Origin: a virus
Virus record (IMG/VR): IMGVR_UViG_3300032334_002236
Coordinates: 1-64,000 of that record
Strand: one strand, 5' to 3'
DNA: 64,000 nt
Shown here piece after piece: positions 250-20,883 of the stretch (its first letter is position 1; the number at the start of each line of letters is the position of its first letter). The notes beneath the pieces were generated by a model. That model searched no databases. It saw only the letters and a program-made list of their open reading frames with translations, and was not told the origin of the DNA. The position numbers and the translations under genes were made by a program.

Positions 250-1794
250 ATGAAAAATATAGTGGACTTAAAGACCAATCAGGAAGATTATGCTCTATTC
301 TTGCCAGCATTGAGTGGCTTCTATAGCACTTACATCGGCAAGCAACGGTTCAGCGAATACGTTGATCCAGCTCGCATACCCGCAGGCCTGGGAGGCATGG
401 AAGGCCTCAACTTTCTTAACAGCAAGGAAGGTGTCTTCCAGTATCCCTGGTGCTTGTATTCAGCAGGCCATGCCAATCTGGATCTGGGGCAAGACCCCAA
501 GGAAGATATGGTACGTACCCGCGAAGAAGGAAGTTTCATCCTGGGAGACTCGGGAGGGTTTCAGATCGCCAAAGGCGTCTGGGAAGGAGACTGGCGAGCT
601 GGATCAGGTTGCGCTAAAGCACAGAAGAAACGTGTAGATGTGCTAAACTGGATGGAAGAGTATATGGACTATGGCATGGGATTGGATATTCCAGGCTGGG
701 TAGGACGTACTCCTCGTGGTCGTGAAGCCACTAAGATCACCACATACCAAGAGGCGGTGGATGCAAGCAAGTTCAATTTCGAATATTGGATGCGCCACCG
801 CCAACATCGTTGCAAGTTCCTCACAGTGTTGCAGGGAGATAACCATACCCAAGCTGATGAATGGTATGAGGAGATGAAGAAGTATTCAGATCCCAAACAC
901 TTCCCTGTGGACCACTTCAATGGTTGGGCCATGGGGTCACAGAACAAATGTGATCCACACCTGGTACTCAAACGCCTGGTATCACTGATCTATGACGGAT
1001 TATTGGAAACTGGTGTACAGGACTGGATACATTACTTGGGTACTAGCAAGCTGGAATGGGCCATGATGTTCACAGACATCCAACGTGCCATCCGCAAGTA
1101 CCATAATCCCACATTGACCATCAGCTTTGACTGTGCAAGTCCGTTCCTGGCCACAGCTAACGGTCAAGTCTATTATGAGAACCGCTTGAACGATCGTGGC
1201 AAGTGGAGTTACAAGATGAGCAAGTGTGTGGATGACAAGAAGTATGCCACAGACCCCAGAGGCTTCCGTGATGTAGTGATCCAGGACGGTCTGTTTGCAG
1301 ATTTCATCAAGAGTCCCATCATCGACGCTTGTGGTATCAGCGACATCTGCCACTACAAGCCCGGTGATCTCAACAAGATCGGCAAAGAAGGGCGCACCAG
1401 TTGGGATAGCTTCAGTTATGCTCTGCTCATGGGCCATAACATCTTTGCTCACATCAGGGCAGTACAGGACGGCAATGCCAGGTATGATCTGGGTATCGTG
1501 CCAGCCAGCTTGGTTCAAGAAAAATTTGATAGACTTTTCTTTAGAGATGTAGTAGATTCTATATTCAGTGCAGGCAGTCGTGCAGAAGCAGATCGCCATG
1601 TGGAAGAGCATAATCGCTGGTACATGGACATCGTGGGCAGCAGTGCCAACGGTTACTTGGGCAAGAAAGCTGTAAACAGCAGCACAGCTTTCGACAAATG
1701 GTTGGACTATGCTGAAACACAAGTGCAAATAGCTCGTGATGACAGCGGATTGAATGACAGAAAATTGGACAAGTTGGAAAACACACAGGATTAA
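250..1794 (+). CDS. dpdA: Phage DpdA-type tRNA-guanine transglycosylase-like protein (7-deazaguanine insertion into DNA)
   Basis: This 514-aa protein is related to TGT enzymes, which exchange guanine for a 7-deazaguanine base; phage DpdA members do this on DNA. The TGT landmarks appear in order: GDSGGFQ at about residues 99-105 (D100 matches the substrate-binding Asp), a second Asp in GLDIPGW (D146), LQGD at 194-197 (TGT has VQGG), GWAMGS at 225-230 (TGT has GGLAVGE), and SFDCASPF with D294 where TGT has its nucleophile in FDCxxPTR. The C-terminal zinc motif of bacterial tRNA TGTs is not seen, as expected for DpdA. folE, queD and queE on the same strand downstream supply the base precursor, which favours DNA rather than tRNA as substrate. 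The start ATG has only a weak Shine-Dalgarno sequence. Confidence 0.85.
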   Translation: MKNIVDLKTNQEDYALFLPALSGFYSTYIGKQRFSEYVDPARIPAGLGGMEGLNFLNSKEGVFQYPWCLYSAGHANLDLGQDPKEDMVRTREEGSFILGDSGGFQIAKGVWEGDWRAGSGCAKAQKKRVDVLNWMEEYMDYGMGLDIPGWVGRTPRGREATKITTYQEAVDASKFNFEYWMRHRQHRCKFLTVLQGDNHTQADEWYEEMKKYSDPKHFPVDHFNGWAMGSQNKCDPHLVLKRLVSLIYDGLLETGVQDWIHYLGTSKLEWAMMFTDIQRAIRKYHNPTLTISFDCASPFLATANGQVYYENRLNDRGKWSYKMSKCVDDKKYATDPRGFRDVVIQDGLFADFIKSPIIDACGISDICHYKPGDLNKIGKEGRTSWDSFSYALLMGHNIFAHIRAVQDGNARYDLGIVPASLVQEKFDRLFFRDVVDSIFSAGSRAEADRHVEEHNRWYMDIVGSSANGYLGKKAVNSSTAFDKWLDYAETQVQIARDDSGLNDRKLDKLENTQD

Positions 1795-1796
1795 TC

Positions 1797-2138
1797 ATGG
1801 AAAATGATAACGCAGATCTCAGTAAACGAATCTATCTGGAATGTGAATGCACTGATTTCGATCACACAGTGCGCATGAGCTTGTGGGATTGGAACAACTA
1901 TACAGATCCAGAGTGCAGTAATGCACCAGAAATGATCGTGGAATATCATCTAAATAATCACGAAAACTGGTATCAGCGTATATGGAGTGCTGTCAAATAT
2001 GTGTTCAGACAGGAAAACATCGTATATCACGATGTGATGTTGGACTCAGCAAGCGTGGAAAAACTAGACAAGCTGTGCCAGGATTATCAGTTGGCATATG
2101 AAGTATATAAACTAGGAACTACAAAAGATGTCAAATAA
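1797..2138 (+). CDS. Small acidic conserved-type phage protein of unknown function
   Basis: This 113-aa protein begins 2 nt after the dpdA stop. It is acidic and rich in aromatic residues (SLWDWNNY near residue 28, ENWYQRIWSAVKYVF near 60). No signal peptide or membrane segment is visible. It looks like one of the small soluble accessory proteins found in T4-like phage metabolic regions, but I do not recognise a named family. Its end overlaps the next start by 11 nt, so it belongs to the dpdA operon. Confidence 0.8.
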   Translation: MENDNADLSKRIYLECECTDFDHTVRMSLWDWNNYTDPECSNAPEMIVEYHLNNHENWYQRIWSAVKYVFRQENIVYHDVMLDSASVEKLDKLCQDYQLAYEVYKLGTTKDVK

Positions 2139-2652
2139 CGATGTATATGTGACCAGTGCAATGATCAATAAGTTGTCAGAAGTCACAAACAAGCCCATTC
2201 CAGATGCTATCATAGATCCTGTCATGGATCCTATCGATGCCACGCCATACATCCATGAACCATATGGTGACAAGATGGAACGCTATTGCGAGATCTGGAT
2301 CAAGTTCCAGATGGAAGGCATACACAAGTATCCAGCAGCCGCAACTGACCCTGACCTGGCAGATGTCAGCTTCCTGGGGTATCCACATCGCCACATGTTC
2401 CATTTTTGCATTGGCATCGAAGTTTATCACTCAAATCGTGATATCGAATTCATCCAGTTCAAACGCTGGCTGATCAGCTTGTATGGTGGTTCCAACGAAC
2501 CAGTGTTAGAGCTGGATTACAAGAGCTGTGAGATGATCGCAGACGATCTGTATGAACAGATCAATAGCAAATACCCCGGTAGAAATGTCACTATCGAGGT
2601 CAGTGAAGATAATGAAAATGGTTGCAAAGTAACCTACAAAAAGGCAGATTGA
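2128..2652 (+). CDS. Unknown phage protein with possible T-fold (QueD-like) architecture
   Basis: This 174-aa protein overlaps the previous gene by 11 nt. Its second half has the layout of a T-fold enzyme: a His cluster entering a beta strand (PHRHMFHFCIGIEV, residues 86-99), then DIEFIQFKRWL (105-115), where QueD has a DFxxLK motif. A helix follows (SCEMIADDLYEQI, 133-145), where QueD has PTxENLAxxI, and then a strand VTIEVSEDNENG (154-165). Homologous short proteins are, to my recollection, widespread in T4-like phages without an assigned role. The QueD-like reading is inference from motif order. If right, this is a second pterin-type protein in the 7-deazaguanine operon; if not, it is a conserved phage protein of unknown function. 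Confidence 0.5.
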   Translation: MSNNDVYVTSAMINKLSEVTNKPIPDAIIDPVMDPIDATPYIHEPYGDKMERYCEIWIKFQMEGIHKYPAAATDPDLADVSFLGYPHRHMFHFCIGIEVYHSNRDIEFIQFKRWLISLYGGSNEPVLELDYKSCEMIADDLYEQINSKYPGRNVTIEVSEDNENGCKVTYKKAD

Positions 2653-2653
2653 T

Positions 2654-2881
2654 ATGATTAAGAATAAACAAATCAACCGCGTATTCGAAGATCTGGATAC
2701 ATATCGCGCATTCTGTGTGGAATTTGGATTCAAGTTCACAGAAGCCGATCTCTATAAAAGAAACGGACCATATGGGCAATATGAACGATTCCGACGCGGC
2801 GATTATGTGAGAAATAACTGGCAAGCTGATTATGAAGGCTTCGAAGCACAAGCAGCTGATAGCCAGCGCAGACCTCACTGA
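2654..2881 (+). CDS. Small basic/aromatic phage protein of unknown function
   Basis: This 75-aa protein starts 1 nt after the previous stop. Its middle is rich in Tyr, Phe and Arg (AFCVEFGFKF, then GQYERFRRGDYV), and its tail looks disordered. There are no membrane segments or recognisable catalytic motifs. It is the last gene before a 129-bp gap holding a hairpin and a promoter-like element, so it probably ends the dpdA transcription unit. Confidence 0.7.
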   Translation: MIKNKQINRVFEDLDTYRAFCVEFGFKFTEADLYKRNGPYGQYERFRRGDYVRNNWQADYEGFEAQAADSQRRPH

Positions 2882-2930
2882 GGGCATCTTTGCCAAGTGT
2901 ATAACATAGTAGAGCAAACATACCCACAAA

Positions 2931-2958
2931 GACTCAGCAGTGATCACATTGCTGAGTT
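2931..2958. repeat. Inverted repeat / hairpin between the dpdA unit and the sugar genes
   Basis: ACTCAGCA (2932-2939) and TGCTGAGT (2950-2957) form a perfect 8-bp stem. The loop holds the palindrome GTGATCAC (2940-2947). There is no clear T-run after it, so it may be a weak terminator, an RNA-stability element or an operator. Confidence 0.5.
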
Positions 2959-2976
2959 CTCCATTGACCTTAAAAA

Positions 2977-3005
2977 TTGACAAGTGATCAACAATACAGT
3001 AGAGT
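2977..3005 (+). promoter_or_regulatory. Possible sigma70-like promoter for the nucleotidyltransferase-cupin gene
   Basis: A consensus TTGACA lies at 2977-2982, followed after 17 nt by TAGAGT (3000-3005), a poor -10 box. The start codon at 3011 is so close that the transcript would be leaderless or nearly so. It is weaker than the other TTGACA promoters in the window. Confidence 0.35.
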
Positions 3006-3010
3006 ATATC

Positions 3011-3778
3011 ATGAGCAAAAAAATAGTAATCATCACAGGTGGCTTCGATCCCATCCATAGCGGGCACGTGGCCTATATCAATGCAGCCAAGAAACTGGGT
3101 GATGTCCTGGTAGTGGGAGTCAACAGTGACATCTGGCTTAGACGCAAGAAAGGGCAGGAATTCATGCCCTGGAAAGAACGAGCAGCTATCATCGAAGCCA
3201 TGCATGATGTGGATAAAGTCATCGCATTAGACGATTCAGATGGCAGTGCCAATGACGCCATACGTCAGGTCTTGAACATGTATCCAGATGATTACATCAT
3301 CTTTGCCAACGGCGGCGATCGCAATAGCAACAACATTCCTGAACAGGACCAGGACTGGCCCATGCGTGTGGGATTCGAGTTCGGAGTGGGTGGAGAAGAC
3401 AAGAAGAACAGCAGCAGTTGGATCCTGGAGAAATGGAACAAACACAGGACAGAACGCATCTGGGGGCATTATGATGTGCTGGCCGAATATCCTGATGTCA
3501 AGTTGAAAGAACTGGTTGTGGAACCAGGGCGTTGCCTCAGCTACCAGCGTCATTTCCAACGTGCTGAGGTCTGGTTCGTGCGCAGTGGTACAGCCCGCAT
3601 CATCTATGACTTTGGTGACCGTGAATACACAGAAGTGTTGAATGCCGAGTCTGTGTTCGTGATACCACGCAAAGGCTGGCATCAGTTGATCAATCCTGGT
3701 GCTGTGCCATTACACATCATCGAGATACAATATGGCGAAGCATGCCTGGAAGAAGACATCGAGAGAGTAGCACAGTGA
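3011..3778 (+). CDS. Nucleotidyltransferase fused to a mannose-6-phosphate isomerase-type cupin
   Basis: The predicted protein is 255 aa. Residues 1-145 are a cytidylyltransferase-like (RfaE/TagD-type HIGH) domain: the motif GFDPIHSGH is at 11-19 and SSSWILEKW at 134-142 sits where the ISTT motif falls in TagD enzymes. Residues 150-255 closely follow the C-terminal cupin of ManC / type II phosphomannose isomerase: WGHYDVL, LVVEPGRCLSYQRHF, RAEVWFVRSGTA, IPRKGWHQLINPG and IIEIQYGE in the right order. Such fusions prepare activated sugars. The likely product is a nucleotide-activated hexose or mannose-like donor, but the exact substrate cannot be read from the sequence. I chose ATG 3011 because the nucleotidyltransferase fold starts immediately there; an in-frame ATG at 2984 would add nine residues. 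The stop overlaps the GTG of the glycosyltransferase (GTGA), so the two are translationally coupled. Confidence 0.8.
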   Translation: MSKKIVIITGGFDPIHSGHVAYINAAKKLGDVLVVGVNSDIWLRRKKGQEFMPWKERAAIIEAMHDVDKVIALDDSDGSANDAIRQVLNMYPDDYIIFANGGDRNSNNIPEQDQDWPMRVGFEFGVGGEDKKNSSSWILEKWNKHRTERIWGHYDVLAEYPDVKLKELVVEPGRCLSYQRHFQRAEVWFVRSGTARIIYDFGDREYTEVLNAESVFVIPRKGWHQLINPGAVPLHIIEIQYGEACLEEDIERVAQ

Positions 3779-4827
3779 AAACCATCTATATAATCCCTAT
3801 AGAGCCCATCGATCAGAGATATACCAAGCAATGGTATGATAACATCCCCAAGTTGCTGGACGGCAAAGGCTATCAGGTGGTCACAGTGGATGGTGATCAG
3901 CCCCAGACAGGAACCACGACAGGTGCGTTCCTGGATTTTGCTGTGACTAACCAGTACAAAGCTAGCCAGGCGCAACGTGTGGCAGAGATGTTTACTGCTG
4001 GCAAGATCCAAGCTGGCGACAAATTCCTGGTCACAGACGCTTGGAACTTCGTGATCACTGCCATCAGATACATGAGCGACTTGTTGGACATACCGGTAGA
4101 GATACATGGTATCTGGCATGCTGGTGCTTATGATCCCACAGACATCCTGGGTATGAAGATGAGCAAGCCCTGGCCCTGGCATCAGGAACGTGCCTGGTAC
4201 CATGCATGTGATTACAACTATTATGCCACCAATTTCCACCGTCGCATGTTCCTGCACAATCTGGATATTCCAGATGCATTTCACAGCAAGGCCATACGTA
4301 GCGGACAGCCACATGAGTATATCATACCTGAAGTGGAAAAGTATTGCCAGAAGGAACGCAACGGTCGTATCATGTGGCCGCATCGTTTGAACAGCGACAA
4401 GCAACCTGACATCATCCGTGACATTGCTACAGAAATGCCAGTAACTATCACGCAAGGTATGGATCTACCCAAGGACGAATATTATCGCTTGCTGGGTTCA
4501 GCAAGCGTGGTATTCAGTTGCAGCCTACATGAGAACCTGGGTATCAGCCAGATGGAAGGGGTGCTGGCAGGTGCATTGCCCATAGTGCCAGATCGCGCCA
4601 GCTATTCAGAGATGTACCCAGATGTGTTCAAGTATCCTGCAGAGTGGACCAGCAACTGGCACAGCTACAACCAGTATCGTGAATATATGTTGGGATTCAT
4701 CCGTGAGCGAATCGACAACTATGATCGTTATTTGCCAGCCCTGATGGAATGTAAAAACAAATTGATTAGTGACTACTTAAATGCTAATATAATGATCAGT
4801 AAACTTACAGGAAAACACAGTGACTGA
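3775..4827 (+). CDS. GT-B glycosyltransferase resembling tRNA-queuosine mannosyltransferase (DUF3524/GTDC1-like)
   Basis: This 350-aa protein starts at a GTG that overlaps the previous stop by 4 nt. The C-terminal half has a retaining GT4-type EX7E motif (E253 to E261 in HENLGISQME) followed by AGALPIVPDRASYSEMYP. The centre has IMWPHRLNSDKQPD (199-212). From memory, the queuosine-tRNA mannosyltransferase family has very similar blocks: ILWNHRWxxDKNPE, then HEFFGxxxLEA, then a Pro-Asn-Arg-xx-Tyr-Pro-Glu segment. The N-terminal half (VTDAW near 86-90, ATNFHRRMFL near 151-160) also matches the general DUF3524 layout. It sits between dpdA and folE and beside a sugar-activation gene. I therefore infer that it transfers a sugar, perhaps to a 7-deazaguanine base or nucleotide. 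It could instead glycosylate protein or glycan. Confidence 0.7.
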   Translation: MKTIYIIPIEPIDQRYTKQWYDNIPKLLDGKGYQVVTVDGDQPQTGTTTGAFLDFAVTNQYKASQAQRVAEMFTAGKIQAGDKFLVTDAWNFVITAIRYMSDLLDIPVEIHGIWHAGAYDPTDILGMKMSKPWPWHQERAWYHACDYNYYATNFHRRMFLHNLDIPDAFHSKAIRSGQPHEYIIPEVEKYCQKERNGRIMWPHRLNSDKQPDIIRDIATEMPVTITQGMDLPKDEYYRLLGSASVVFSCSLHENLGISQMEGVLAGALPIVPDRASYSEMYPDVFKYPAEWTSNWHSYNQYREYMLGFIRERIDNYDRYLPALMECKNKLISDYLNANIMISKLTGKHSD

Positions 4828-5509
4828 GATAAGCAAAGTTATCAAGAAGCGTTTGGAAGAAGATGGCAAGCGTTACTGGGCTGGTGATAATATCAGCGAG
4901 TATATCAACCCAGAAGAACGCACTGAATTGATTGCAGAACTGCATAAGAAGTTTGATGCGGTGCTGGATAGCTTAGTGATCGATCGTGAGAACGATCCCA
5001 ACAGCAATGACACTGGCCGTAGATTGGCCAAGATGTATGTCAATGAGCTGATGCGAGGTCGCTACTATCCAGCACCGGATGCAACTGCATTTCCCAATGA
5101 AATGGAAGACCGATATGAAGGCATGTTGGTTGTTCGCAGTGAATTACGTAGTGTTTGCAGCCATCATCATCAGCCTGTTACAGGCGTTGCCTACATTGGT
5201 ATTCTTGCAGCAGACAGACTTATCGGTCTCAGCAAGTATACTCGCATTGCTCAGTGGTGTGCCCGTCGTGGTACTCTGCAAGAAGAACTTTGCAATGATA
5301 TTGCAAAACAGATCATGAAGGCCACTGGTAGTGCTGATGTGGGTGTGTATATCCAGGCTACTCACGGATGTTGTGAAAATAGGGGCATAATGGCACACAG
5401 TAGTTTGACACAGACTACTGTGTTAAAGGGCAGCTTCTTTAACGATCCAGGCACCAAGAAAGAATTCTTCGATAATATCAAGTTACAACAGGAGTATGCA
5501 AGCAGATGA
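4820..5509 (+). CDS. folE: GTP cyclohydrolase I
   Basis: This 229-aa protein is of normal length for FolE, which opens GTP to dihydroneopterin triphosphate, the first step towards 7-deazaguanines and folates. Visible signatures are LAKMYVNELMRG (69-80), the zinc and catalytic motif CSHHHQP (C113, H115-H117), IGLSKYTRIAQWCARR (135-150) and HGCCENRG (182-189) carrying the second zinc Cys. The start is the GTG at 4820, overlapping the glycosyltransferase stop by 8 nt. The 3' end (5477-5510) is repeated almost exactly at the end of the next gene. The product feeds QueD and QueE downstream. Cytoplasmic homodecamer by family knowledge. Confidence 0.95.
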   Translation: MTEISKVIKKRLEEDGKRYWAGDNISEYINPEERTELIAELHKKFDAVLDSLVIDRENDPNSNDTGRRLAKMYVNELMRGRYYPAPDATAFPNEMEDRYEGMLVVRSELRSVCSHHHQPVTGVAYIGILAADRLIGLSKYTRIAQWCARRGTLQEELCNDIAKQIMKATGSADVGVYIQATHGCCENRGIMAHSSLTQTTVLKGSFFNDPGTKKEFFDNIKLQQEYASR

Positions 5510-5510
5510 G
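5477..5510 (+). repeat. Direct repeat copy 1 (folE 3' end and translation start of next gene)
   Basis: This 34-nt stretch matches 5950-5983 with 3 mismatches. It carries the last codons of folE (KLQQEYASR), a GGAG ribosome-binding site and the ATGA start/stop junction of the next gene. Confidence 0.85.
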
Positions 5511-5982
5511 ACCATTAGGACATTTGGGTATCGGCATCGGGACCGCAGATTTTGATCTGAATAATCTAGACGAGAAAATATACGATGCTCTTAGTGAACG
5601 AGGCGACACCTTATTACAGGAAACTTTTGAAAATTTTATGGGGAGTCAATTTAAGACCCCTCCTAAAAAAACTTTCAAACAGATAAAAGAGGCATATGAA
5701 TATAGATTAGAACGAAAGACTCATCTGTTGAGACTAGGAGTTCCTAAAGAAATCATGGATCATGAAGACGAAATCGTTGTGAAACTTTACAACGATCTAA
5801 AAAATAAAAACTTTGTTACTTCTAAAGATCCTGCATATACAAAGTATCGCAATGCATATGAAAAAAGATTAGAAGAATGGGAAGATTCTGATATTAAAGA
5901 AAATCTCCTAAATGAAATTTATGCATATAACGAAGCTGAGTACAATAAGATCAAATTACAACCGGAGTATACAAGCAGATGA
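5506..5982 (+). CDS. AT-rich unrecognised ORF inserted between folE and its former neighbour
   Basis: This 158-aa protein overlaps folE by 4 nt (ATGA). I do not recognise a family. It is highly charged and probably helical, with two similar stretches (EAYEYRLERKTH near 62-73 and NAYEKRLEEWED near 116-127) suggesting an internal repeat or coiled coil. Base composition is visibly more AT-rich than the genes on both sides, with many AAA, GAA and AGA codons. Its last residues (IKLQPEYTSR) nearly copy the FolE C-terminus, because the gene is flanked by 34-nt direct repeats. This points to recent acquisition next to folE, with duplication of the junction. The true C-terminus before insertion is unknown. 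Confidence 0.75.
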   Translation: MRPLGHLGIGIGTADFDLNNLDEKIYDALSERGDTLLQETFENFMGSQFKTPPKKTFKQIKEAYEYRLERKTHLLRLGVPKEIMDHEDEIVVKLYNDLKNKNFVTSKDPAYTKYRNAYEKRLEEWEDSDIKENLLNEIYAYNEAEYNKIKLQPEYTSR

Positions 5983-5983
5983 G
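5950..5983 (+). repeat. Direct repeat copy 2 (3' end of inserted ORF and start of next gene)
   Basis: This is the second copy of the 34-nt repeat at 5477-5510, 473 nt downstream. It again provides a GGAG ribosome-binding site and ATGA junction, so the insertion left translation of the downstream gene intact. Confidence 0.85.
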
Positions 5984-6356
5984 CGGACCTTATCAAAATA
6001 CACCACAAGTATCTGATACATTTGTATTTTCAGGCGCCCAGTCAGGTCGCCAACCTGTTAAACTTAGTTGGTTCCAGCGTTGGTTTCTCAAACATAGCCA
6101 ACAAGCCTGGCAACATGGCAATCAAGATCGTAACATGAAAACATCTGCTATTCATGGACAGACTGTTACCCGCGAGCTTAATACCCGTAACAGCGTAGAT
6201 CTCAGTTTGATCCGTGCTGATGGCGGATGGATTGTTCAATTCCAAACTTATGATGACAATCATGATCGTCATAATGTATACCATCATGTAATTCCAGATT
6301 CGGAAGATTTTGGCCCAAGACTCGCAGAGATTGTCACACTGCAATGTATGCGTTAA
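5979..6356 (+). CDS. Small phage protein of unknown function
   Basis: This 125-aa protein overlaps the previous stop by 4 nt and uses the second copy of the repeat as its initiation region. It has an aromatic/basic N-terminal part (KLSWFQRWFLKHSQQAW) and a C-terminal part that looks beta-rich (GGWIVQFQTYDD, then HNVYHHVIPDSEDFG). No catalytic motif is recognised. Before the AT-rich ORF was inserted it was probably directly downstream of folE. Confidence 0.7.
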   Translation: MSGPYQNTPQVSDTFVFSGAQSGRQPVKLSWFQRWFLKHSQQAWQHGNQDRNMKTSAIHGQTVTRELNTRNSVDLSLIRADGGWIVQFQTYDDNHDRHNVYHHVIPDSEDFGPRLAEIVTLQCMR

Positions 6357-6372
6357 CAAAAGGAAAAACACA

Positions 6373-6567
6373 GTGATTAAATTAACAAATGCCACAGCAG
6401 AACATAAAGGTAATCCCATCTATGTGAACCGCCACTGGATCGTGGTTGTGTTTGAATCGCCAGTGGAAGCTGGTGGAAGCCTTCGCACCATCGTATACGG
6501 TGGACCACAGGGAACTAGCTGGGAAGTGGAAGAGTCACCAGCAGAAATACAGCAGTTGATGAAGTGA
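6373..6567 (+). CDS. 64-aa phage protein of unknown function (GTG start)
   Basis: I chose the GTG at 6373 because it follows an AAGGA Shine-Dalgarno sequence (about 6358-6363) and begins right where the compact sequence starts (VIKLTNATAEHKGNPIYVN). The in-frame ATG at 6310 lies inside the previous gene. The protein is short and beta-rich (HWIVVVFESP, RTIVYGG), and its end overlaps the next gene by 4 nt. No function is recognised. Confidence 0.65.
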   Translation: MIKLTNATAEHKGNPIYVNRHWIVVVFESPVEAGGSLRTIVYGGPQGTSWEVEESPAEIQQLMK

Positions 6568-6842
6568 GTAACAACGGCAGAAACCCTGTGGGTATCGATT
6601 ACGATTATTCCACAGGTATGCCATTGACCAGCAATGCTTTCTCCACACAAGGCAGTGCTGGTCAATTCTTGACCAGCAGTTCCAACGGGCTTTTATGGTC
6701 TACACCGTCTCCAAAGTATGGAGACGCTGCTGGTGGTGTTCCTGTAATGGTCCAGGCTGAATTAAGAAAACAGCACCCAGCCTTACAGGAAGCCTGGGAA
6801 AAATATCTCACAATATTACATTTATGCAATGACAAATCTTGA
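6564..6842 (+). CDS. Small phage protein with C-terminal LQEAWE module (paralogue 1)
   Basis: This 92-aa protein has a GTG start overlapping the previous stop (GTGA). The first 50 residues are low-complexity and Ser/Gly-rich, like the linkers used in phage fibre proteins (AGQFLTSSSNGLLWSTPSP). The last 25 residues form an amphipathic helix, HPALQEAWEKYLTIL, that recurs in the next gene. Such short helices sit at the ends of many phage small proteins, in my recollection, without assigned function. Confidence 0.65.
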   Translation: MSNNGRNPVGIDYDYSTGMPLTSNAFSTQGSAGQFLTSSSNGLLWSTPSPKYGDAAGGVPVMVQAELRKQHPALQEAWEKYLTILHLCNDKS

Positions 6843-7038
6843 AAAACGTGCTGGCTTCGATCTATTCAGTTTGGGCAAATGGGCCGGTGATGATTACATC
6901 CGTCCAGACAGTAAATCTGCCATCTTTTGGCAGGTGCCTTTCCATAGCCAGAAAACCCTACAACAACAGAATCCCAGCCTCCAGGAGGCCTGGGAAAATT
7001 ACCTTTGCTTATTGGCCATGACCCATGACAATAAGTAA
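6829..7038 (+). CDS. Small phage protein with C-terminal LQEAWE module (paralogue 2)
   Basis: This 69-aa protein starts at an ATG 14 nt inside the previous gene. The C-terminal helix NPSLQEAWENYLCLL matches the module of the upstream protein, while the N-terminal half differs completely (LFSLGKWAGDDYIRPDSK). The pair looks like a shared docking or oligomerisation helix on different bodies. No enzyme motif is seen. Confidence 0.65.
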   Translation: MTNLEKRAGFDLFSLGKWAGDDYIRPDSKSAIFWQVPFHSQKTLQQQNPSLQEAWENYLCLLAMTHDNK

Positions 7039-7069
7039 TCACATATCGGCGCTCCAGGCTTCATCCCGA

Positions 7070-7098
7070 TTGACAAATTCTGCAGCCTATGCTAACTT
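7070..7098 (+). promoter_or_regulatory. Sigma70-like promoter for queD-queE
   Basis: TTGACA at 7070-7075 is followed after 17 nt by TAACTT at 7093-7098, preceded by TG (7090-7091) as in an extended -10. A Shine-Dalgarno TAGGAGA and ATG 7117 follow. queD and queE therefore have their own promoter, separate from folE. Confidence 0.6.
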
Positions 7099-7116
7099 AA
7101 ACCATAGGAGACCAGC

Positions 7117-7674
7117 ATGACAAAAACCATAAATGAGTCCATGAGAGGGCTGGGAAACAAGATTATCAAACCCTTTCAACCTGTCGTATACAAGTATACC
7201 AGCACTAAAGAATACATCGACGCATTTCCCTGTGCCTATCGTCAGTGGAGAGCAGACAGCCATTGTAATACCATACACGGTTATTCATTCAGCATGAAGT
7301 TCTATTTCGGCACCAACGATCTAGATGTTCGTAACTGGGCAGCAGACTACGGTGGATTAAAAGAACTCAAGAAGATCCTGGAAGAACAGTTTGATCACAC
7401 ACTGCTTGTAGCTGAAGATGATCCAGAGCTAGCAACATTCAAACTGCTACAGGAAAAACACATGGCCAAGCTGACTATCCTGCCCAAGCTGGGCTGTGAA
7501 TCACTGGCAGACATGTTGTACAAATACATCAACACAGTGTACATTCCAGACATGTGGGGACCAGGTGAAGCAGAACGCTTGTGGTGCTATCGTGTGGAAG
7601 TTCGTGAGACGCAGGCTAACATGGCGTTCCGTGAAGGACATCGTGAATGGAACGAAAATCTGGAGGATATGTAA
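7117..7674 (+). CDS. queD: QueD-like 6-carboxy-5,6,7,8-tetrahydropterin synthase
   Basis: This 185-aa T-fold protein would convert dihydroneopterin triphosphate (from FolE) to 6-carboxytetrahydropterin. Visible QueD features are the catalytic Cys motif CNTIHGYSF (C50, H54), the QFDHTLL motif (D93-H94) and GCESLADMLYKYI, where QueD has PTxEN. Oddities: the first zinc His, expected in FxxAHR, is Tyr here (FPCAYRQW, Y41), and the third zinc His (HGH) is also Tyr (HGY, Y56). Only one of the three usual zinc ligands is plainly conserved. It may use other ligands or be a diverged paralogue. The C-terminus is extended and charged. queE follows with no gap. Confidence 0.8.
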   Translation: MTKTINESMRGLGNKIIKPFQPVVYKYTSTKEYIDAFPCAYRQWRADSHCNTIHGYSFSMKFYFGTNDLDVRNWAADYGGLKELKKILEEQFDHTLLVAEDDPELATFKLLQEKHMAKLTILPKLGCESLADMLYKYINTVYIPDMWGPGEAERLWCYRVEVRETQANMAFREGHREWNENLEDM

Positions 7675-8517
7675 GTGTTCGGAAAAAATGAAATCGTAGG
7701 ACAGAAATACTTCAACGATGCTGCTGAAGATCAGCTATTCGTCACTAGCATCTTCTATACACTACAGGGCGAAGGTCCTTATCGTGGTGAACCTGCTGTA
7801 TTCCTCAGACTAGCCAAATGCAATCTGGCTTGCAGTTTCTGTGACACCTACTTCGACGGTGGTGATTGGCTTACGTTCGATGATGTGTATGATCGCATCA
7901 TGGCGGCTGCTGTCAAATACTTTGGTGGCGAGGTACCTGGATGGTTCGACCAAAAGGTGGGATTAGTAATCACAGGTGGTGAACCCATGCTGCAAAAGAA
8001 TCTGGGTGTATTCTTGGAAAAAGTCAAGAACCTGTTTGCCTGGACACAGATTGAAAGCAATGGCACCGTATGGCAGGATATTCCAGCAGAGACTACACTG
8101 GTATGCAGTCCCAAGTGTTCAGAGAAGAACGGGCAACCTGTTAAGTATCTGAAGCCCAATAAAGATGTGATGGATCGTGCAGATTGTCTCAAGTTTGTCA
8201 TGAACGCTGACACTGACAGTCCTTACAGTGAAATCCCAGATTGGGCACATGAGTATGCGGCTGCTGGCAAGAAAGTGTTTATCAGTCCCATGAACATCTA
8301 TAACCACGAGCCACAGAAGAGCAAGCAGATGCGTAGTACCAAGAACGATATCACTATGGAAGAACGCAGTGCAGTTGATGAGGTCATCAGCTTCTGGGAA
8401 GAAGGGTTGTTGAACATGCCCGAGAACCAGAAGAACCACGAGTATGCTGCCCAGTATTGTGCTCGTAACGGATTTGTACTCAACTTGCAGATCCACTTGT
8501 ATGCGAGCCTTGCATGA
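7675..8517 (+). CDS. queE: 7-carboxy-7-deazaguanine synthase (radical SAM)
   Basis: This 280-aa protein uses a GTG start directly after the queD stop, with GGAGG upstream (inside queD). The radical-SAM cluster motif is CNLACSFC (C49, C53, C56; CX3CX2C), preceded by FYTLQGEGPYRG, the typical QueE entry segment. ITGGEP (99-104) is the SAM-binding GGE motif, and IESNGT follows. QueE rearranges 6-carboxytetrahydropterin into CDG using SAM and Mg2+. With FolE and QueD the route from GTP to CDG is complete in this window. The length is somewhat above the usual bacterial 220-250 aa because of an insert around residues 165-235. Confidence 0.93.
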   Translation: MFGKNEIVGQKYFNDAAEDQLFVTSIFYTLQGEGPYRGEPAVFLRLAKCNLACSFCDTYFDGGDWLTFDDVYDRIMAAAVKYFGGEVPGWFDQKVGLVITGGEPMLQKNLGVFLEKVKNLFAWTQIESNGTVWQDIPAETTLVCSPKCSEKNGQPVKYLKPNKDVMDRADCLKFVMNADTDSPYSEIPDWAHEYAAAGKKVFISPMNIYNHEPQKSKQMRSTKNDITMEERSAVDEVISFWEEGLLNMPENQKNHEYAAQYCARNGFVLNLQIHLYASLA

Positions 8518-12757: not shown

Positions 12758-13915
12758 ATGGCTAAGAATACAGATTCTGCTTTAACCGAATCCCGCACAG
12801 TAACTATCGAAGCCGCACGTCGCGAAATCGAGATCTGTGCTCGTCTCAAACGCCCTGTGTTTTTGTGGGGACCCCCAGGTATCGGCAAGAGCGAACTCAT
12901 TGCCCAGATCACAGAATCCCTGGGTGGCAAGATGTATGACTTGCGACTGGCTCTCATGGATCCTTCAGATCTCAAGGGTGTGCTTTTCTACAACCCAGCA
13001 GTGGGCAATGCCATGTGGAATGCTCCACCTGATCTGCCTAGCAAAGCTGAAGCTGCTGAATATCCAATGACAGTGTTGTTTTTGGATGAAATGAATTCAG
13101 CTGCTCCTGCTACACAAGCTGCTGCATATCAGCTGGTGCTTAACCGTAAGATCGGCACATATGAGCTGCCAGATAACTGCGTGATCGTTGCCGCAGGTAA
13201 CCGCGACACCGACCGCGGCGTCACATACCGCATGCCCAAGCCGCTGGCCAACCGTTTTGTCCATTTGCAGTTGCGTGTGGATTTCGAGAGCTGGCAAAAC
13301 TGGGCTATCGATAATCATATCCACCCTGATGTGTTAGCTTACATCACCTGCAACAAAGGCGATCTGTTCCAGTTCGATCCTGCTAGCCACAGCGTCAGTT
13401 TTGCTACCCCACGTAGCTGGGTTTTTGTCAGCCAGTTGTTGAGCGAAAATCCCAACGAGACTGAACTCAACGATCTGGTTGCAGGCACAGTGGGCGAAGG
13501 CATCGGTCTCAAATTCGGCGCCCATCGTCGTGTTGCTGCTCAGATGCCCAACCCCAGCCATATCTTGCAGGGTAAGATCAATGAACTCAAGAACAAAGAT
13601 CTGGGTGCCAAATACTCTCTTACTATCAGCCTGTGCTATGAACTTAAAGCCAGCTACGATAACCGTGGTGGCGGCAAGGACAAGAACGGCAACGAGCGTA
13701 TGAAAGAATCAGAAATGAATCTGTGGCACAAAGAAATCGATAATGTGTTGCGCTTCATCTTGGATCACATGGATACCGAATTGCAGGTCATGTTTGTCAG
13801 CATGATCATGAAAAATTACCAACTGCCAATGCGGACCAGCAAGCTGAGCAACTACAGCGAGTTCCACAATAGGAATGGTAACTATATCATCGAAGCTCTT
13901 CGTCCATCTAGCTGA
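12758..13915 (+). CDS. MoxR-family AAA+ ATPase
   Basis: This 385-aa protein carries Walker A GPPGIGKS (38-45), Walker B VLFLDEMN (106-113), sensor-1 region VIVAAGNRD, and an Arg-containing segment PLANRFVHLQL typical of MoxR ATPases. These ATPases act as chaperones together with VWA-domain proteins, inserting metals or remodelling complexes. The expected VWA partner is encoded at 17774-19027 under a similar promoter, but a minus-strand block lies between them. The C-terminal lid region (after about residue 200) includes a Gly/Lys loop (YDNRGGGKDKNGNE). T4-like phages from aquatic sources often carry such a pair, from memory, with unknown role. Confidence 0.88.
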   Translation: MAKNTDSALTESRTVTIEAARREIEICARLKRPVFLWGPPGIGKSELIAQITESLGGKMYDLRLALMDPSDLKGVLFYNPAVGNAMWNAPPDLPSKAEAAEYPMTVLFLDEMNSAAPATQAAAYQLVLNRKIGTYELPDNCVIVAAGNRDTDRGVTYRMPKPLANRFVHLQLRVDFESWQNWAIDNHIHPDVLAYITCNKGDLFQFDPASHSVSFATPRSWVFVSQLLSENPNETELNDLVAGTVGEGIGLKFGAHRRVAAQMPNPSHILQGKINELKNKDLGAKYSLTISLCYELKASYDNRGGGKDKNGNERMKESEMNLWHKEIDNVLRFILDHMDTELQVMFVSMIMKNYQLPMRTSKLSNYSEFHNRNGNYIIEALRPSS

Positions 13916-13919
13916 TAAC

Positions 13920-14033
13920 TGATAGGGCCCATGCTCCATCATCATAGATGGGCCCTATCACTAGCGGAAAGATCTCAGTGCGGGTGAGATCATACAGATG
14001 AGCGGGCTAGGGGGCTGCATCTGTACATTTTTT
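13920..14033 (+). terminator. Three stacked hairpins between convergent genes, ending in an intrinsic terminator
   Basis: Hairpin 1: 13-bp stem 13920-13932 with 13948-13960 (GATAGGGCCCAT and its complement), loop of 15 nt. Hairpin 2: GATCTCA (13971-13977) with TGAGATC (13985-13991). Hairpin 3: TACAGATG (13993-14000) with CATCTGTA (14018-14025), followed by a T-run at 14028-14033, a plus-strand intrinsic terminator. Together they separate moxR from the convergent glycosyltransferase gene. Confidence 0.8.
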
Positions 14034-15123
14034 AACTGAATAGCTTGATGGTATCAGTCTGTTGTGGCTGCAAGGCTTTCCTGTAGAAATCCAGGTTGTC
14101 TTGCAGCCTTTTATCGTTGGGATCCAGTTCCACTGCCTTGGCTCCATATTCCAGAGCTTGTTGGAAATCGCCCACATAGTAACTGCTAAGTGCAGCCAGA
14201 TCCAAGGGCTTGGGTCCCCAGCTGACAGGATCGTTGGTGTACAACGTGGTCTTATTGTTGATGAATAATGCCTGTCTGGCAGCATATTGGCACTCTACCC
14301 ATAGCCCCTGCTTGTGGCAGAAATCAGCCAGATCCACCCAGGCATCTCTGCCATGTGGATACACTGCTGACGCTTCACGATATTGCTTGTGAGCTTCTGA
14401 CAACCTGTCCTGCCCTTCCAGGCATTGTGCTAACTTACGACGGATGTAATCCTGCTCGTAGTCAGTGTATCGCTCTGCCCAGCTGAGGCATTTCTTCCAT
14501 GCTTCTTCTGCTTCCACCCAACGCCCATTGAAGTTTAATTCACGGGCATAATAGAAGGCATTGCGCTGGCAGTAGGGATCTTCTTTCACAGCACATTCCA
14601 ACAGTTGCATGTAATTGCCGCGGCTCTTGGTGGGATCTGGATGATGTTTGACCAAAAGCTCTGTGGTGAAGGCATATTTTTCCGGGGCACGTGGATCTGA
14701 TTCCACGTATTCATGGCAAGGGTAATTCCAAACGAAACCAAACCTGGCGTGTATCTTGCTGGTATTGAATATCAGGTTATTGCTCCAGTCATACAGATAG
14801 CTGAGACGGGTGGTATCTGCCTCCCAGGCATCTTCCACTATCTTGCGCCAGCCTGGTGTCATGACTTCATCCAGGTCGATGCTGACACATATGTCCACAT
14901 CTTCCGGAACTAGTCCCAGTGCGATGTTCCTGGCGATGTCGAACCTCCAGGGTTTGACCCTGATGTCGTGTACTATGGCGCCACAATCCCTGGCGGTTTG
15001 GGCGGTGTTGTCTGTGCTTCCAGTGTCACAGATGATGACCATGTCGGCATCTGTACAGCTTTCGCAGAATCTCTTGACGAAATGTTCTTCGTTCTTGCTG
15101 ATGGCGTATACTGCTATTTTCAT
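14032..15123 (-). CDS. GT2-family glycosyltransferase with TPR repeats
   Basis: This 363-aa protein starts like GT-A family 2 enzymes: MKIAVYAISKNEEHFV, then ICDTGSTDNT (32-41) and a DxD-like metal motif in SIDLDEV (about 85-91). After about residue 180 there are repeated helix pairs of TPR type (FYYARELNFNGRWVEAEEAW, ALSSYYVGDFQQALEYGAKA). The fold suggests transfer of a sugar to a protein or glycan. Its neighbour on the same strand is a tail fibre, so fibre or capsid glycosylation is possible, as is modification of host surface sugars. An in-frame fusion of GT2 and TPR is common in bacteria and phages. Confidence 0.85.
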   Translation of the reverse strand: MKIAVYAISKNEEHFVKRFCESCTDADMVIICDTGSTDNTAQTARDCGAIVHDIRVKPWRFDIARNIALGLVPEDVDICVSIDLDEVMTPGWRKIVEDAWEADTTRLSYLYDWSNNLIFNTSKIHARFGFVWNYPCHEYVESDPRAPEKYAFTTELLVKHHPDPTKSRGNYMQLLECAVKEDPYCQRNAFYYARELNFNGRWVEAEEAWKKCLSWAERYTDYEQDYIRRKLAQCLEGQDRLSEAHKQYREASAVYPHGRDAWVDLADFCHKQGLWVECQYAARQALFINNKTTLYTNDPVSWGPKPLDLAALSSYYVGDFQQALEYGAKAVELDPNDKRLQDNLDFYRKALQPQQTDTIKLFS

Positions 15124-17773: not shown

Positions 17774-19027
17774 ATGGCAAAATCTCGTAAAAAACACAAG
17801 ACTTTACCTGACAATATGTTGTCAGATACTATCGATAAAGTAGCTGATGAGCAAGCTCGTCAATCCATCCTCCGTGCCCGTATCGCTATGGTGCTACGAC
17901 ACGGCATGTTCGGTCAATTAGCCATGCGTTTGAAACTAGTAAATGCCGACAGCTGGTGCATGACTGCTGCTACCGACGGACGTCATTTCTTCTATAACAG
18001 CAAATTCATCAACATGTTAGATACGCAACAGAACATCTTCCTGTTCTGTCATGAATTACTCCACTGTGCTTACGACCACATGGAACGTGGCAAAAACAAA
18101 CACCAGACCATAGCAAACATTGCCATGGATTATGTAGTGAATGCCGATTGCATCAAATACAAGATGGGCAATAGGATCACCGTGGTGGATGTGTTGTACG
18201 ATAAAAAATATGAAGATTGGAGCTTCGAACAGGTCTATGACGATCTGATGAAGAATGCCAAAGTGATCAACATGGATGATCTGGCTGACATGTTGTTGGA
18301 CGAACATCTGGATGGCAGCAAGGAGGGAGACAAAGATAAAGACGGCAAAGGTCGTCCCAAATTGTCAGATGTTGAAAAACAAGCTATCCGTGACGAATTC
18401 AAAGAAGCCATGCTGAGTGCTGCACAAGCAACAGGTGCCGGAAATACTCCTGCTAATATCTCACGCATGATCAAAGAGCTTACTGCTCCCAAGATCAACT
18501 GGCGTGAACTGATCACCCAACAGATCCAGAGCACTATCAAACACGATTACACCTACGTGACACCCAACAAGAAGATGTTCAGCTCGGGCTTTGTGTTGCC
18601 CAGCATGAAAAGAGACGAGACCATCGATGTTTGTGTTGCTATCGATACATCAGGTAGTATCGGTGACAAACAACTGGACCAGTTCTTTAGCGAAGTCAAC
18701 GGCATCATGAACAGCTATGATGATTTTAACATCAAAGTCTGGTGTTTCGATACCAGTGTGCATAATCCACAAGATTACGACACTGGCAACAGCCACGAGC
18801 TCTTGGATTATAAACCCAAAGGATTCGGTGGTACTGACTTCGATTCCAACTGGCAATGGATGAAAGAAGAAAATATTGAACCCAAACTGTTGATCGTGTT
18901 CACTGACGGTGAACCCTATGGCAGCTGGGGTGACGAAAACTATTGCGACACCGTATGGATCATCCACAACAAACACCGCAAAGATATCGAACCGCCGTTC
19001 GGTATACATGCATTCTACGAAGAATAA
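17774..19027 (+). CDS. VWA-domain protein with HExxH metallopeptidase-like domain (MoxR partner)
   Basis: This 417-aa protein has an N-terminal putative metallopeptidase domain with HELLHCAYDH (H93, E94, H97) and a C-terminal VWA domain whose MIDAS motif DTSGSIG is at 291-297. A charged Lys/Asp linker (about 180-200) lies between them. The architecture matches the DUF2201 family, whose members pair with MoxR ATPases. The matching ATPase is 3.8 kb upstream on the same strand. Conserved metal ligands in both domains suggest it is functional. The role in phages is unknown; host protein remodelling or virion assembly are both possible. Confidence 0.87.
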   Translation: MAKSRKKHKTLPDNMLSDTIDKVADEQARQSILRARIAMVLRHGMFGQLAMRLKLVNADSWCMTAATDGRHFFYNSKFINMLDTQQNIFLFCHELLHCAYDHMERGKNKHQTIANIAMDYVVNADCIKYKMGNRITVVDVLYDKKYEDWSFEQVYDDLMKNAKVINMDDLADMLLDEHLDGSKEGDKDKDGKGRPKLSDVEKQAIRDEFKEAMLSAAQATGAGNTPANISRMIKELTAPKINWRELITQQIQSTIKHDYTYVTPNKKMFSSGFVLPSMKRDETIDVCVAIDTSGSIGDKQLDQFFSEVNGIMNSYDDFNIKVWCFDTSVHNPQDYDTGNSHELLDYKPKGFGGTDFDSNWQWMKEENIEPKLLIVFTDGEPYGSWGDENYCDTVWIIHNKHRKDIEPPFGIHAFYEE

Positions 19028-19923: not shown

Positions 19924-20227
19924 ACCCAGTTTCAGTGATGACTTTCTAAACAAATGGGAACATTTGATCAACGACATTGAGATAACAGACGTACCACTTC
20001 GTTTCATCAGCGAAGTGGTCGTTTTTTTCCACAACGGTGATCAGATGGAATTTAACATAGAAGAAATGTTACAGAACACTTTTCCAGTGGCACACATAGA
20101 AGAAGAGATAGAGACATTCCTCAGCGAGAATGACAGATACATCGATAATGTGGATTTCCACATAAACATCCCAGCAGTAGCTACAGAAATCGAAACAAAA
20201 ACCAACAAGTTATTGGATAAAGCATGA
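19916..20227 (+). CDS. 103-aa acidic phage protein (GTG start), containing an internal terminator-like hairpin
   Basis: The GTG start at 19916 overlaps the previous stop by 8 nt. The protein is acidic, with alternating beta and helical segments (VPLRFISEVVVFFHNGDQ, then EEIETFLSENDRYIDNVDFH). The codons for LRFISEVVVFF form a 9-bp hairpin followed by seven T residues. No function is recognised. Its stop overlaps thyX by 4 nt. Confidence 0.72.
   Translation: MPEPSFSDDFLNKWEHLINDIEITDVPLRFISEVVVFFHNGDQMEFNIEEMLQNTFPVAHIEEEIETFLSENDRYIDNVDFHINIPAVATEIETKTNKLLDKA
19993..20028 (+). terminator. Intrinsic terminator-like hairpin inside a coding region
   Basis: ACCACTTCG (19993-20001) and CGAAGTGGT (20011-20019) form a perfect 9-bp stem with a 9-nt loop. 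After CG comes T7 (20022-20028). It lies about 80 nt inside the gene at 19916 and upstream of thyX. Confidence 0.6.
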
Positions 20228-20883
20228 GCACCAGTAAGATAGTAGCAATGACCAATCCCGTGGATACTGACCTCAGTATAGATCAATTCGTGGCATATGT
20301 GGCCAGGGTCAGTAATCCCAGCAACCAGAATAACACCTTGACAGCTGATAAGTTACTCAAGTATCTGGTCAAACACAAGCACTGGAGCCCTTTCGAGATG
20401 GTGCATGTGGTCATGGAGATCGATACCACACGTGACATTGCTCGCCAGATCCTGCGACACCGCAGTTTCAGTTTCCAGGAGTTCAGCCAACGCTATGCTG
20501 ATCCCACGAGCGACCTGGGGTTCAGTATGCGCGATGCCAGGCTACAGGACATGAAAAATCGTCAGAATAGTATCCAAGTTGAAGATCCAGAACTACAGCG
20601 TGAATGGGAAAATAAGCAAAACAAGATGATCGGCAGTGCCAAGGAAGCATACTTATGGGCTGTTAACAATGGCATTGCCAAAGAACAAGCCCGTGCAGTA
20701 TTGCCTGAAGGGTTGACCAATAGCCGTCTGTACATGGCTGGTAGCCTGCGTAGCTGGATACACTATTGCGAGCTCAGGATGGCCAATGGCACACAGCTGG
20801 AGCACCAGCAAGTGGCTAAAGATTGCTGGGCAGATATCTGCCAGAGATTTCCCAGCCTGGCTGATATCATCACATCAGGGTGA
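20224..20883 (+). CDS. thyX: Flavin-dependent thymidylate synthase
   Basis: This 219-aa protein carries the ThyX signature RHRSFSFQEFSQRY (78-91; RHRxxSxxExSxRY) and downstream active-site residues in ARAVLPEGLTNSRLYMAGSLRSW. ThyX makes dTMP from dUMP using FAD and methylene-tetrahydrofolate, supplying phage DNA synthesis. Its 3' end overlaps the end of the convergent fibre gene by 9 bp, marking the switch from the plus-strand metabolic half to the minus-strand structural half. Confidence 0.95.
   Translation: MSTSKIVAMTNPVDTDLSIDQFVAYVARVSNPSNQNNTLTADKLLKYLVKHKHWSPFEMVHVVMEIDTTRDIARQILRHRSFSFQEFSQRYADPTSDLGFSMRDARLQDMKNRQNSIQVEDPELQREWENKQNKMIGSAKEAYLWAVNNGIAKEQARAVLPEGLTNSRLYMAGSLRSWIHYCELRMANGTQLEHQQVAKDCWADICQRFPSLADIITSG

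Follow-up and report, generated by a model that had tools for sequence, protein, structure and literature searches.

The virus record IMGVR_UViG_3300032334_002236 is a partial genome of 86,913 bases, the first 64 kb of which (64,000 nucleotides, hereafter the window) begin with a cluster of genes for the synthesis of 7-deazaguanines and their predicted insertion into DNA. In the list of open reading frames (ORFs), the genes run on the plus strand from dpdA at position 250 to the end of queE at position 8517. They comprise dpdA (250-1794), coding for a divergent protein of 514 amino acids with the predicted fold of tRNA-guanine transglycosylases (TGTs) and a predicted role as DNA guanine transglycosylase, folE for GTP cyclohydrolase I (4820-5509), queD for a protein of the 6-carboxytetrahydropterin synthase family of the C..IHGY type (7117-7674), and queE for a radical SAM protein of the 7-carboxy-7-deazaguanine synthase family (7675-8517). 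A preliminary description had placed these four genes on one strand, and all four are complete plus-strand ORFs. It overlooked three further genes between positions 250 and 8517, namely those for a second protein with the QueD fold, or T-fold (2128-2652), for a fusion of an HldE/TagD-like nucleotidyltransferase with a mannose-6-phosphate-isomerase-type cupin (3011-3778) and for a group-1 (GT4-like) glycosyltransferase (3742-4827), as well as the absence of queC. The major-capsid-type protein of the record shares 68-69% identity with its counterparts in Vibrio phage 2.275.O and the PA5oct-like Pseudomonas phages (68% for PA5oct; best of 2,496 records), which makes it probable that the record is part of a larger myovirus genome.

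Sequence searches with the window DpdA yielded no match in Pfam, PHROGs and NCBIfam (expectation value, E, of 0.1), in the PDB (E 1) or among the PADLOC models, and searches with its family gave matches at chance level only, none of them to a TGT. The assignment is therefore based on the predicted structure, which has the TGT fold, and not on sequence searches. An AlphaFold2 model computed from an alignment of 29 sequences reached a predicted local distance difference test score (pLDDT) of 82.6 and a predicted template modelling score (pTM) of 0.84. With this model, the top nine rows in Foldseek were all TGTs (best E 3.6e-6), as were all 50 rows shown by VIA-align, in which the best alignment with the T. 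maritima TGT covers 308 residues (Z 20.4, root-mean-square deviation 4.4, 15% identity). The landmarks GDSGGFQ (residues 99-105) and D294 inside SFDCASPF, already pointed out in the preliminary description, are confirmed as invariant in all 29 aligned sequences, the window included, and GDSGGFQ together with [FY]D.ASPF is present in 80 of 80 related loci, these being the loci kept from 99 IMG/VR loci with a DpdA of the window type. We take D100 to Q105 and D294 to correspond to the catalytic residues of TGTs, with D294 as the presumed nucleophile. In 79 of the 80 loci dpdA lies downstream of a gene for a B-family DNA polymerase. Fold, invariant motif, genomic partners and conservation thus lend good support to the earlier proposal of a phage that synthesizes a deazaguanine and places it in its own DNA, and it is highly probable that the window DpdA would be the enzyme putting the base there.

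With regard to its kinship, tblastn with the window DpdA retrieved 13 phage records, those of 11 PA5oct-like Pseudomonas phages (32% identity), of Sinorhizobium phage Phosso (28%) and of 2.275.O. In hhalign comparisons it scored 100% (E 9e-83) against proteins from bacterial islands, 54% (E 1.3e-4, a weak link) against DpdA2, 11% against the small DpdA-like proteins of Ahp1, D479, RHph_I1_18, MA9V-3 and phiST, and a probability of 1% against the single DpdA1 sequence of phage 9g. The name DpdA2 was given to the nt-1 protein YP_008125322 (PMC6884629), and the ACP17 protein is called DpdA2 here because it matches that protein. In a tree of 51 rows with many long branches, the DpdA2 proteins of ACP17, X1, BUCT-ZZ01 and nt-1 split off with a support of 100/100, leaving the window DpdA outside their clade, and the Phosso protein adjoins the bacterial-island proteins. 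The window DpdA is thus a member of a divergent group that is nearest to the bacterial-island proteins and weakly related to DpdA2. Grouping with tRNA TGTs, named in the preliminary description as an outcome that would contradict a role in DNA modification, was assessed in part: the tRNA TGT model PF01702 matched none of the 29 family members and none of 11 records at E 0.1, and the 51-row tree contained no tRNA TGT. The bacterial relatives (loci L247, L248, L251-L255, L258 and L259) stem from isolates of Limnohabitans, Polynucleobacter, Sphingobium, Sphingopyxis and Sphingomonas and from metagenome-assembled genomes such as Roseovarius; they adjoin a partner protein of 500-590 amino acids belonging to one of two homologous groups, and several, as judged by eye, have recombinase or phage genes close by. 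In the available DNA of L247-L260, nothing is matched by the profiles of FolE, QueD, QueE, QueC, the QueD-fold family and the glycosyltransferase, and two of the DpdA-partner pairs had no match in PADLOC or NCBIfam. DpdA and partner possibly constitute a new two-gene island for DNA base exchange.

For FolE, QueD and QueE, all encoded within 7 kb, matches were found in Pfam (GTP_cyclohydroI, 8.9e-38; PTPS, 1.4e-16; Radical_SAM, 4.9e-7) and in PHROGs (GTP cyclohydrolase, 8.1e-43; QueD-like, 4.4e-36; QueE-like, 1.1e-51); the NCBIfam matches agree, yet are below the curated cut-offs. The window QueE is 64% identical to that of Phosso and 44% identical to that of ACP17, and its weak match to the PADLOC viperin model (9.6e-7) is expected of a radical SAM protein. 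Unlike it, the QueE proteins of the relatives in cluster 18 (19 loci, e.g. L050:19723-20619) have a long insertion within the CxxxC...C cluster motif.

The second QueD-fold protein (2128-2652) belongs to a family without meaningful match in Pfam or in a PDB profile search, and was found to match PHROG 17812, of unknown function, at 1.1e-31. Its AlphaFold2 model has a mean pLDDT of 75.1 and a pTM of 0.61, with values of 72-94 for the residue blocks from 51 onward, and the best solved matches in Foldseek are PTPS/QueD structures (E 1.0e-4 to 1.4e-4, the latter for E. coli QueD), a QueF-like archaeosine synthase appearing lower in the list. In an alignment of 34 sequences the histidines H66, H87 and H89 are kept and there is no cysteine ahead of the HxH motif. 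A separate conventional QueD/PTPS (PF01242) is present in 24 of 25 isolate records, including 10 of 11 with the QueD-fold gene; the protein is therefore regarded as an extra enzyme, and the possibility that it is simply the QueD of the phage was discarded. Likewise rejected was a role of the HGY-type QueD encoded at 7117 as replacement of QueC, as the same type occurs in the QueC-carrying phages R26L, Pan1, Motura, MiCath and R7M and is thus common to them and to phages with the QueD-fold gene.

No match to QueC (PF06508) was found in the 86.9 kb record, nt-1 and 9g being positive in the same search, although this absence is weaker evidence for a partial record than for the full records of isolates. 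Whole-record searches for the QueD-fold gene, QueC and the glycosyltransferase were also considered for 26 isolated phages, some tests being made on 25. The QueD-fold gene was found in 11 of them (PA5oct, Phosso, ACP17, X1, RHph_I1_18, Ahp1, Bakedbeans, BUCT-ZZ01, D479, MA9V-3 and phiST), of which D479 alone has a QueC match over the cut-off (partial, 6e-9), X1 has one below it and nine have none. By contrast, QueC exceeds the cut-off in all other 15 (9g, nt-1, R26L, Pan1, R5C, Motura, KVP40, Marzo, R7M, MiCath, ART, S0112, PaMx25, pf16 and 2.275.O), the match in Marzo being partial (4e-9) and of a strength similar to that in D479, and in none of these 15 were the QueD-fold gene or the glycosyltransferase found. 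The two genes are thus nearly exclusive across the 26 isolates, with QueC in 15/15 versus 1/11 by the curated cut-off and in 14/15 versus 0/11 when near full-length matches only are counted, and the glycosyltransferase accompanies the QueD-fold gene in 5/11 and QueC in 0/15. Fisher values of 2e-7 and 3e-6 (25 records) are indicative only, since the phages are not independent draws. Moreover, ten of the 11 QueD-fold isolates were chosen from the tblastn list of that gene (21 records, one per phage kind), phiST having been added on account of a published study, and the QueC group was taken from the match lists of QueE and DpdA2, in which some record names already showed QueC, with 9g and nt-1 included as phages named in the literature and 2.275.O via the DpdA list. 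In phage 2.275.O, a DpdA of the window type (E 1e-71) is accompanied by QueC, by a gene annotated as QueF and by one resembling a transporter gene; neither the QueD-fold gene nor the glycosyltransferase was matched, negative results that depend on these alignments having worked with other records. Because this phage pairs the window DpdA type with QueC and lacks the glycosyltransferase, the glycosyltransferase follows the QueC-less branch of the pathway and not the type of DpdA.

QueC and the QueD-fold protein would both act on the product of QueE, 7-carboxy-7-deazaguanine (CDG), and the QueD-fold protein is accordingly predicted to stand in for QueC. 7-Deazaguanine itself was reportedly found in Cellulophaga phage phiST by Cui et al. 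in 2023, with DpdL as the predicted CDG decarboxylase, and DpdL is said, less certainly, to have a QueD-like T-fold. Like the window, phiST has annotated FolE, QueD and QueE, a homologue of the 2128-2652 family (6.4e-24) and no QueC match; it differs in that its DpdA-like protein is small and of a different type, and in that a glycosyltransferase of the window family is missing. Since phiST carries the QueD-fold gene and QueC is unmatched there, this gene is a candidate for DpdL. Near-exclusion with QueC, fold and presence in phiST together suggest that the QueD-fold protein most likely decarboxylates CDG to 7-deazaguanine. A phage lacking only QueC could, according to Hutinet et al., carry CDG (PMC6884629).

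In the family of the glycosyltransferase encoded at 3742-4827, 25 members were aligned, and 21 of them match the Pfam model Glycos_transf_1 with E values not above 0.1 (1.6e-8 for the best). A PDB profile search with the family gave no meaningful match; the window protein carries the motif E264-x7-E272. Among the 11 Pfam families matched by the 25 members at E 0.1, models of T4-type DNA glucosyltransferases are absent. The true start of the window protein is probably a GTG near 3775, as residue 12 is aligned with methionine in 86% of rows. The preceding nucleotidyltransferase-cupin protein matches CTP_transf_like (7.6e-14) and MannoseP_isomer (2.6e-25) in Pfam and, below the cut-off, TIGR02199 (2.8e-20), and is predicted to make a sugar donor linked to a nucleoside diphosphate (NDP); its ORF opens at a GTG at 2984, with the ATG at 3011 judged by eye to be the likelier start. 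Two more glycosyltransferase-like genes were observed, one in the window (14032-15123, minus strand), where a family-2 glycosyltransferase domain is followed by TPR repeats, and one in BUCT-ZZ01 directly before DpdA2 (L093:5373-6716, by eye), which could add a second sugar.

With respect to the linkage of these genes, 47 of the 80 related loci cover 6 kb from the start of dpdA (when grouped by DpdA at 99, 95 or 90% identity, they form 37, 30 or 22 groups), and the glycosyltransferase family is present in 47/47 and the QueD-fold family in 46/47, the sole miss being L011, whose available DNA begins at dpdA. In the 32 loci covering 9 kb, FolE and a sugar epimerase were each found in 24 and a phosphoribosyltransferase in 20. 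The 70 loci covering 6 kb upstream include 57 with a nucleotidyltransferase, 55 with a phosphomannomutase-like HAD protein and 53 with a UDP-glucose/GDP-mannose dehydrogenase-like protein, the domains having been identified from one representative per family. By these counts, most relatives have sugar-nucleotide genes around dpdA. In the reciprocal approach with 63 viral loci seeded by the glycosyltransferase (44 distinct sequences, 7 kb flanks; some contigs recur among the three seeded sets), DpdA was found within the flanks in 55 (46 of the window type, nine DpdA2), the QueD-fold gene in 55, FolE in 53, QueE in 34, QueD in 25 and, with a one-sequence profile from nt-1, QueC in none. Of the eight loci in which no DpdA was found by profile, six have the glycosyltransferase less than 1.9 kb from the left edge (L181, L188, L208, L209, L210 and L232), and L238 contains an ORF with the DpdA1-like motif LDSGAHSWY, as seen by eye, without NCBIfam match. 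Among 80 loci seeded by the QueD-fold gene, four are without DpdA, and in these four the seed gene starts at 319-994 of the locus DNA.

Among isolates that are only distantly related, the gene set recurs with two types of DpdA. In PA5oct, DpdA, glycosyltransferase and QueD-fold protein are adjacent (gp168-gp167-gp166) with QueE at gp162; the order is DpdA2-glycosyltransferase-QueD-fold-QueE in ACP17 (gp123-gp126), glycosyltransferase-DpdA2-QueD-fold-QueE in X1 and DpdA2-QueD-fold-glycosyltransferase in BUCT-ZZ01, and in Phosso the row QueD-fold-glycosyltransferase-FolE-QueE has dpdA about 170 kb away. A family of unknown function (cluster 5, 130-175 amino acids, e.g. L075:11917-12444) lies within 6 kb after the start of dpdA in 39 of the 47 loci and, as gp122 of ACP17 (L086:10326-10724), just ahead of DpdA2, and belongs with the module. 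The phosphoribosyltransferase (cluster 16; L060:16197-16745, L093:3456-3917, L264:28218-28646) is annotated as xanthine-guanine phosphoribosyltransferase in BUCT-ZZ01 and as phosphoribosyl transferase in phiST, and could recycle the guanine freed by base exchange.

Taken together, FolE, QueD and QueE would, by their family assignments, convert GTP to CDG, which the QueD-fold protein would take over in the place of QueC, most likely by decarboxylation to 7-deazaguanine; DpdA would then exchange guanine in the phage DNA for 7-deazaguanine, and the glycosyltransferase would add a sugar, either to the deazaguanine once it is in DNA or to the base while still free, e.g. at the exocyclic 2-amino group or at C7. 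This sugar would perhaps be supplied in NDP-linked form by the nucleotidyltransferase-cupin protein. DNA modified in this way would withstand restriction enzymes and further defences that read DNA. Whether the module as a whole works in this order is about evenly balanced. That the base is QueC-independent is likely, and the preQ0-type base of the preliminary description is disfavoured, given that the 86.9 kb record has no QueC match and that the cluster has a putative QueC stand-in and a glycosyltransferase; 7-deazaguanine, or some other derivative independent of QueC, is the likelier final base, and it is probably glycosylated. The placing of the sugar on just this QueC-independent base, suggested by the association of the genes, is put forward somewhat more tentatively than the scheme as a whole.

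Several observations weigh against this scheme, and are best considered together with the alternatives which they favour. As the record is an 86.9 kb piece, QueC may lie outside it or be supplied by the host, and in addition to the partial and below-cut-off matches in D479 and X1, a QueC-family match restricted to the first 74 positions (1.1e-6) was found in G004, one of four metagenomic records of relatives searched for QueC and itself the carrier of a window-type DpdA, the QueD-fold gene and the glycosyltransferase (locus L059). As FolE, QueD, QueE and DpdA are the usual set, and as some phages could depend on preQ0 made by the host (PMC6884629), the modification could thus be a conventional one in which DpdA inserts preQ0 or a derivative, with QueC coming from the host or from the unsequenced remainder of the phage. 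This is nevertheless improbable in view of the nearly complete lack of QueC from the 11 QueD-fold isolates and of 2.275.O, where the same DpdA type goes with QueC and the QueD-fold and glycosyltransferase genes are missing. An action of the TGT-fold protein on tRNA, raising queuosine in the tRNA of the host, would accord with the fold and with FolE, QueD and QueE, which serve queuosine synthesis too, but can hardly be credited, since the failure of PF01702 in the 29 members and 11 records places the family far from tRNA TGTs, and since the weak profile link to DpdA2 and the position of dpdA downstream of the DNA polymerase gene point to DNA.

Other observations bear on the sugar. The glycosyltransferase is missing from six of the 11 QueD-fold phages, Pfam returned nothing at E 0.1 for the window member of its family, and L217 has glycosyltransferase and FolE (and, by eye, a phosphoribosyltransferase) with no DpdA in the available DNA; in the ten loci nearest to the window (L002-L011), the sugar-nucleotide genes that other relatives have upstream were not seen and the nucleotidyltransferase is present in only four, L011 having a dehydrogenase-like gene located after the glycosyltransferase. 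Furthermore, if CDG is decarboxylated, the base would be left without a 7-substituent as a handle for the sugar, and clusters of nucleotidyltransferase, cupin and glycosyltransferase genes in cyanophages have been attributed to capsule or lipopolysaccharide (PMC7824862). The base might therefore be unglycosylated 7-deazaguanine or CDG, with glycosyltransferase and nucleotidyltransferase serving a cell-surface glycan or another target and being merely clustered with dpdA. We consider this rather unlikely, because the glycosyltransferase goes with the QueD-fold gene beside three kinds of DpdA (two by profile, the third, in L238, by eye) and is missing from all 15 QueC phages, and a surface-glycan gene would have no reason to track the branch of the base pathway. 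The glycosyltransferase could also decorate a modified pyrimidine independently of DpdA, hydroxymethyl- or hydroxycytosine being the substrate of the DNA glycosyltransferases in T4-like phages (PMC13390438). However, among the scanned window proteins, to which this statement is confined as not every ORF of the 86.9 kb record is annotated, a single pyrimidine gene was noticed, coding for ThyX (20224-20883), which together with the Pfam profile of the family, devoid of T4-type enzymes, makes such a role very improbable.

Functional parallels to the proposed glycosylation of a deazaguanine exist outside of phages. The glycosyltransferases QTMAN and QTGAL produce mannosyl- and galactosyl-queuosine and are, as would be the window enzyme, glycosyltransferases acting on a deazaguanine in nucleic acid; unlike it, they work on eukaryotic tRNA, with the sugar on the cyclopentenediol of queuosine, and they are likened here by function. 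In the biosynthesis of huimycin in Kutzneria albida, a base derived from 7-deazaguanine receives a sugar at its 2-amino group, a step that has been assigned to a glycosyltransferase (PMC7439116). As in the window, homologues of FolE, QueD and QueE provide the base, whereas huimycin is a small-molecule antibiotic made via preQ0 and involves no DNA, and huiG is likewise compared with the window glycosyltransferase by function. The DNA glucosyltransferases of T4 (PMC13216743) also place sugars on phage DNA bases after replication, yet their substrate is hydroxymethylcytosine and their Pfam families are unmatched by the glycosyltransferase family described here. With the DpdA2 systems represented by nt-1 (PMC6884629), the window shares a TGT-like enzyme with FolE, QueD and QueE genes in large phages, but nt-1 has QueC, has neither QueD-fold gene nor glycosyltransferase, and has a DpdA of a separate clade. 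In PA5oct, for which a deazaguanine system was predicted by Iyer et al. in 2021 (PMC7824862), the same type of DpdA, the glycosyltransferase and the QueD-fold gene stand in a row with QueE nearby; its DpdA is 32% identical to that of the window, and the accessible part of PMC7824862 does not link the glycosyltransferase to the base.

The remaining features of the locus comprise a C-terminal piece of a gene truncated by the start of the contig (76-246, plus strand), which by eye resembles the end of PA5oct gp170 and a sliding clamp; a family of this kind precedes dpdA in 79 of the 80 related loci at a median of 0.74 kb. Between dpdA and the QueD-fold gene lies a gene for a small protein (1797-2138, plus strand) matching PHROG 12660, annotated as virion structural (2.7e-11), the family of which occurs in 4/80 related loci, and the QueD-fold gene is followed by one for a small conserved protein of unassigned function (2654-2881, plus strand; family in 38/80). 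Farther downstream in the window, genes for a MoxR-like AAA ATPase (12758-13915) and a DUF2201/VWA protein (17774-19027) flank two minus-strand genes; proteins of these two kinds are an often coupled pair.

To our knowledge, the known deazaguanine modifications of phages are small 7-substituents and the known glycosylated phage bases are pyrimidines; titles and abstract openings in the literature revealed no paper describing a deazaguanine in DNA that bears a sugar, a weak indication of absence as few subscription papers and preprints are covered. While the core of the preliminary description, a deazaguanine in the phage DNA, is sound, the base is unlikely to be preQ0, and the conserved glycosyltransferase is the more interesting part. 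With the conserved set of DpdA, QueD-fold protein and glycosyltransferase, the presence of a purine carrying a sugar in DNA can be tested directly, as the records of isolates name the laboratory strains P. aeruginosa PAO1 and Synechococcus elongatus PCC 7942 as hosts. In addition, the near-exclusion of QueC and the QueD-fold gene offers a genomic rule for predicting the base of a phage, and the window DpdA escapes detection by all Pfam, NCBIfam, PHROGs and PADLOC models tried. It is conceivable, though we advance this with reserve, that phages of at least five distinct lineages carry glycosylated 7-deazaguanine, made with several types of DpdA and a dedicated glycosyltransferase, as a hypermodified purine paralleling the glycosylated pyrimidines of T4-like phages. 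If this is true, sugar-decorated guanine analogues may hide phage DNA from bacterial defences.

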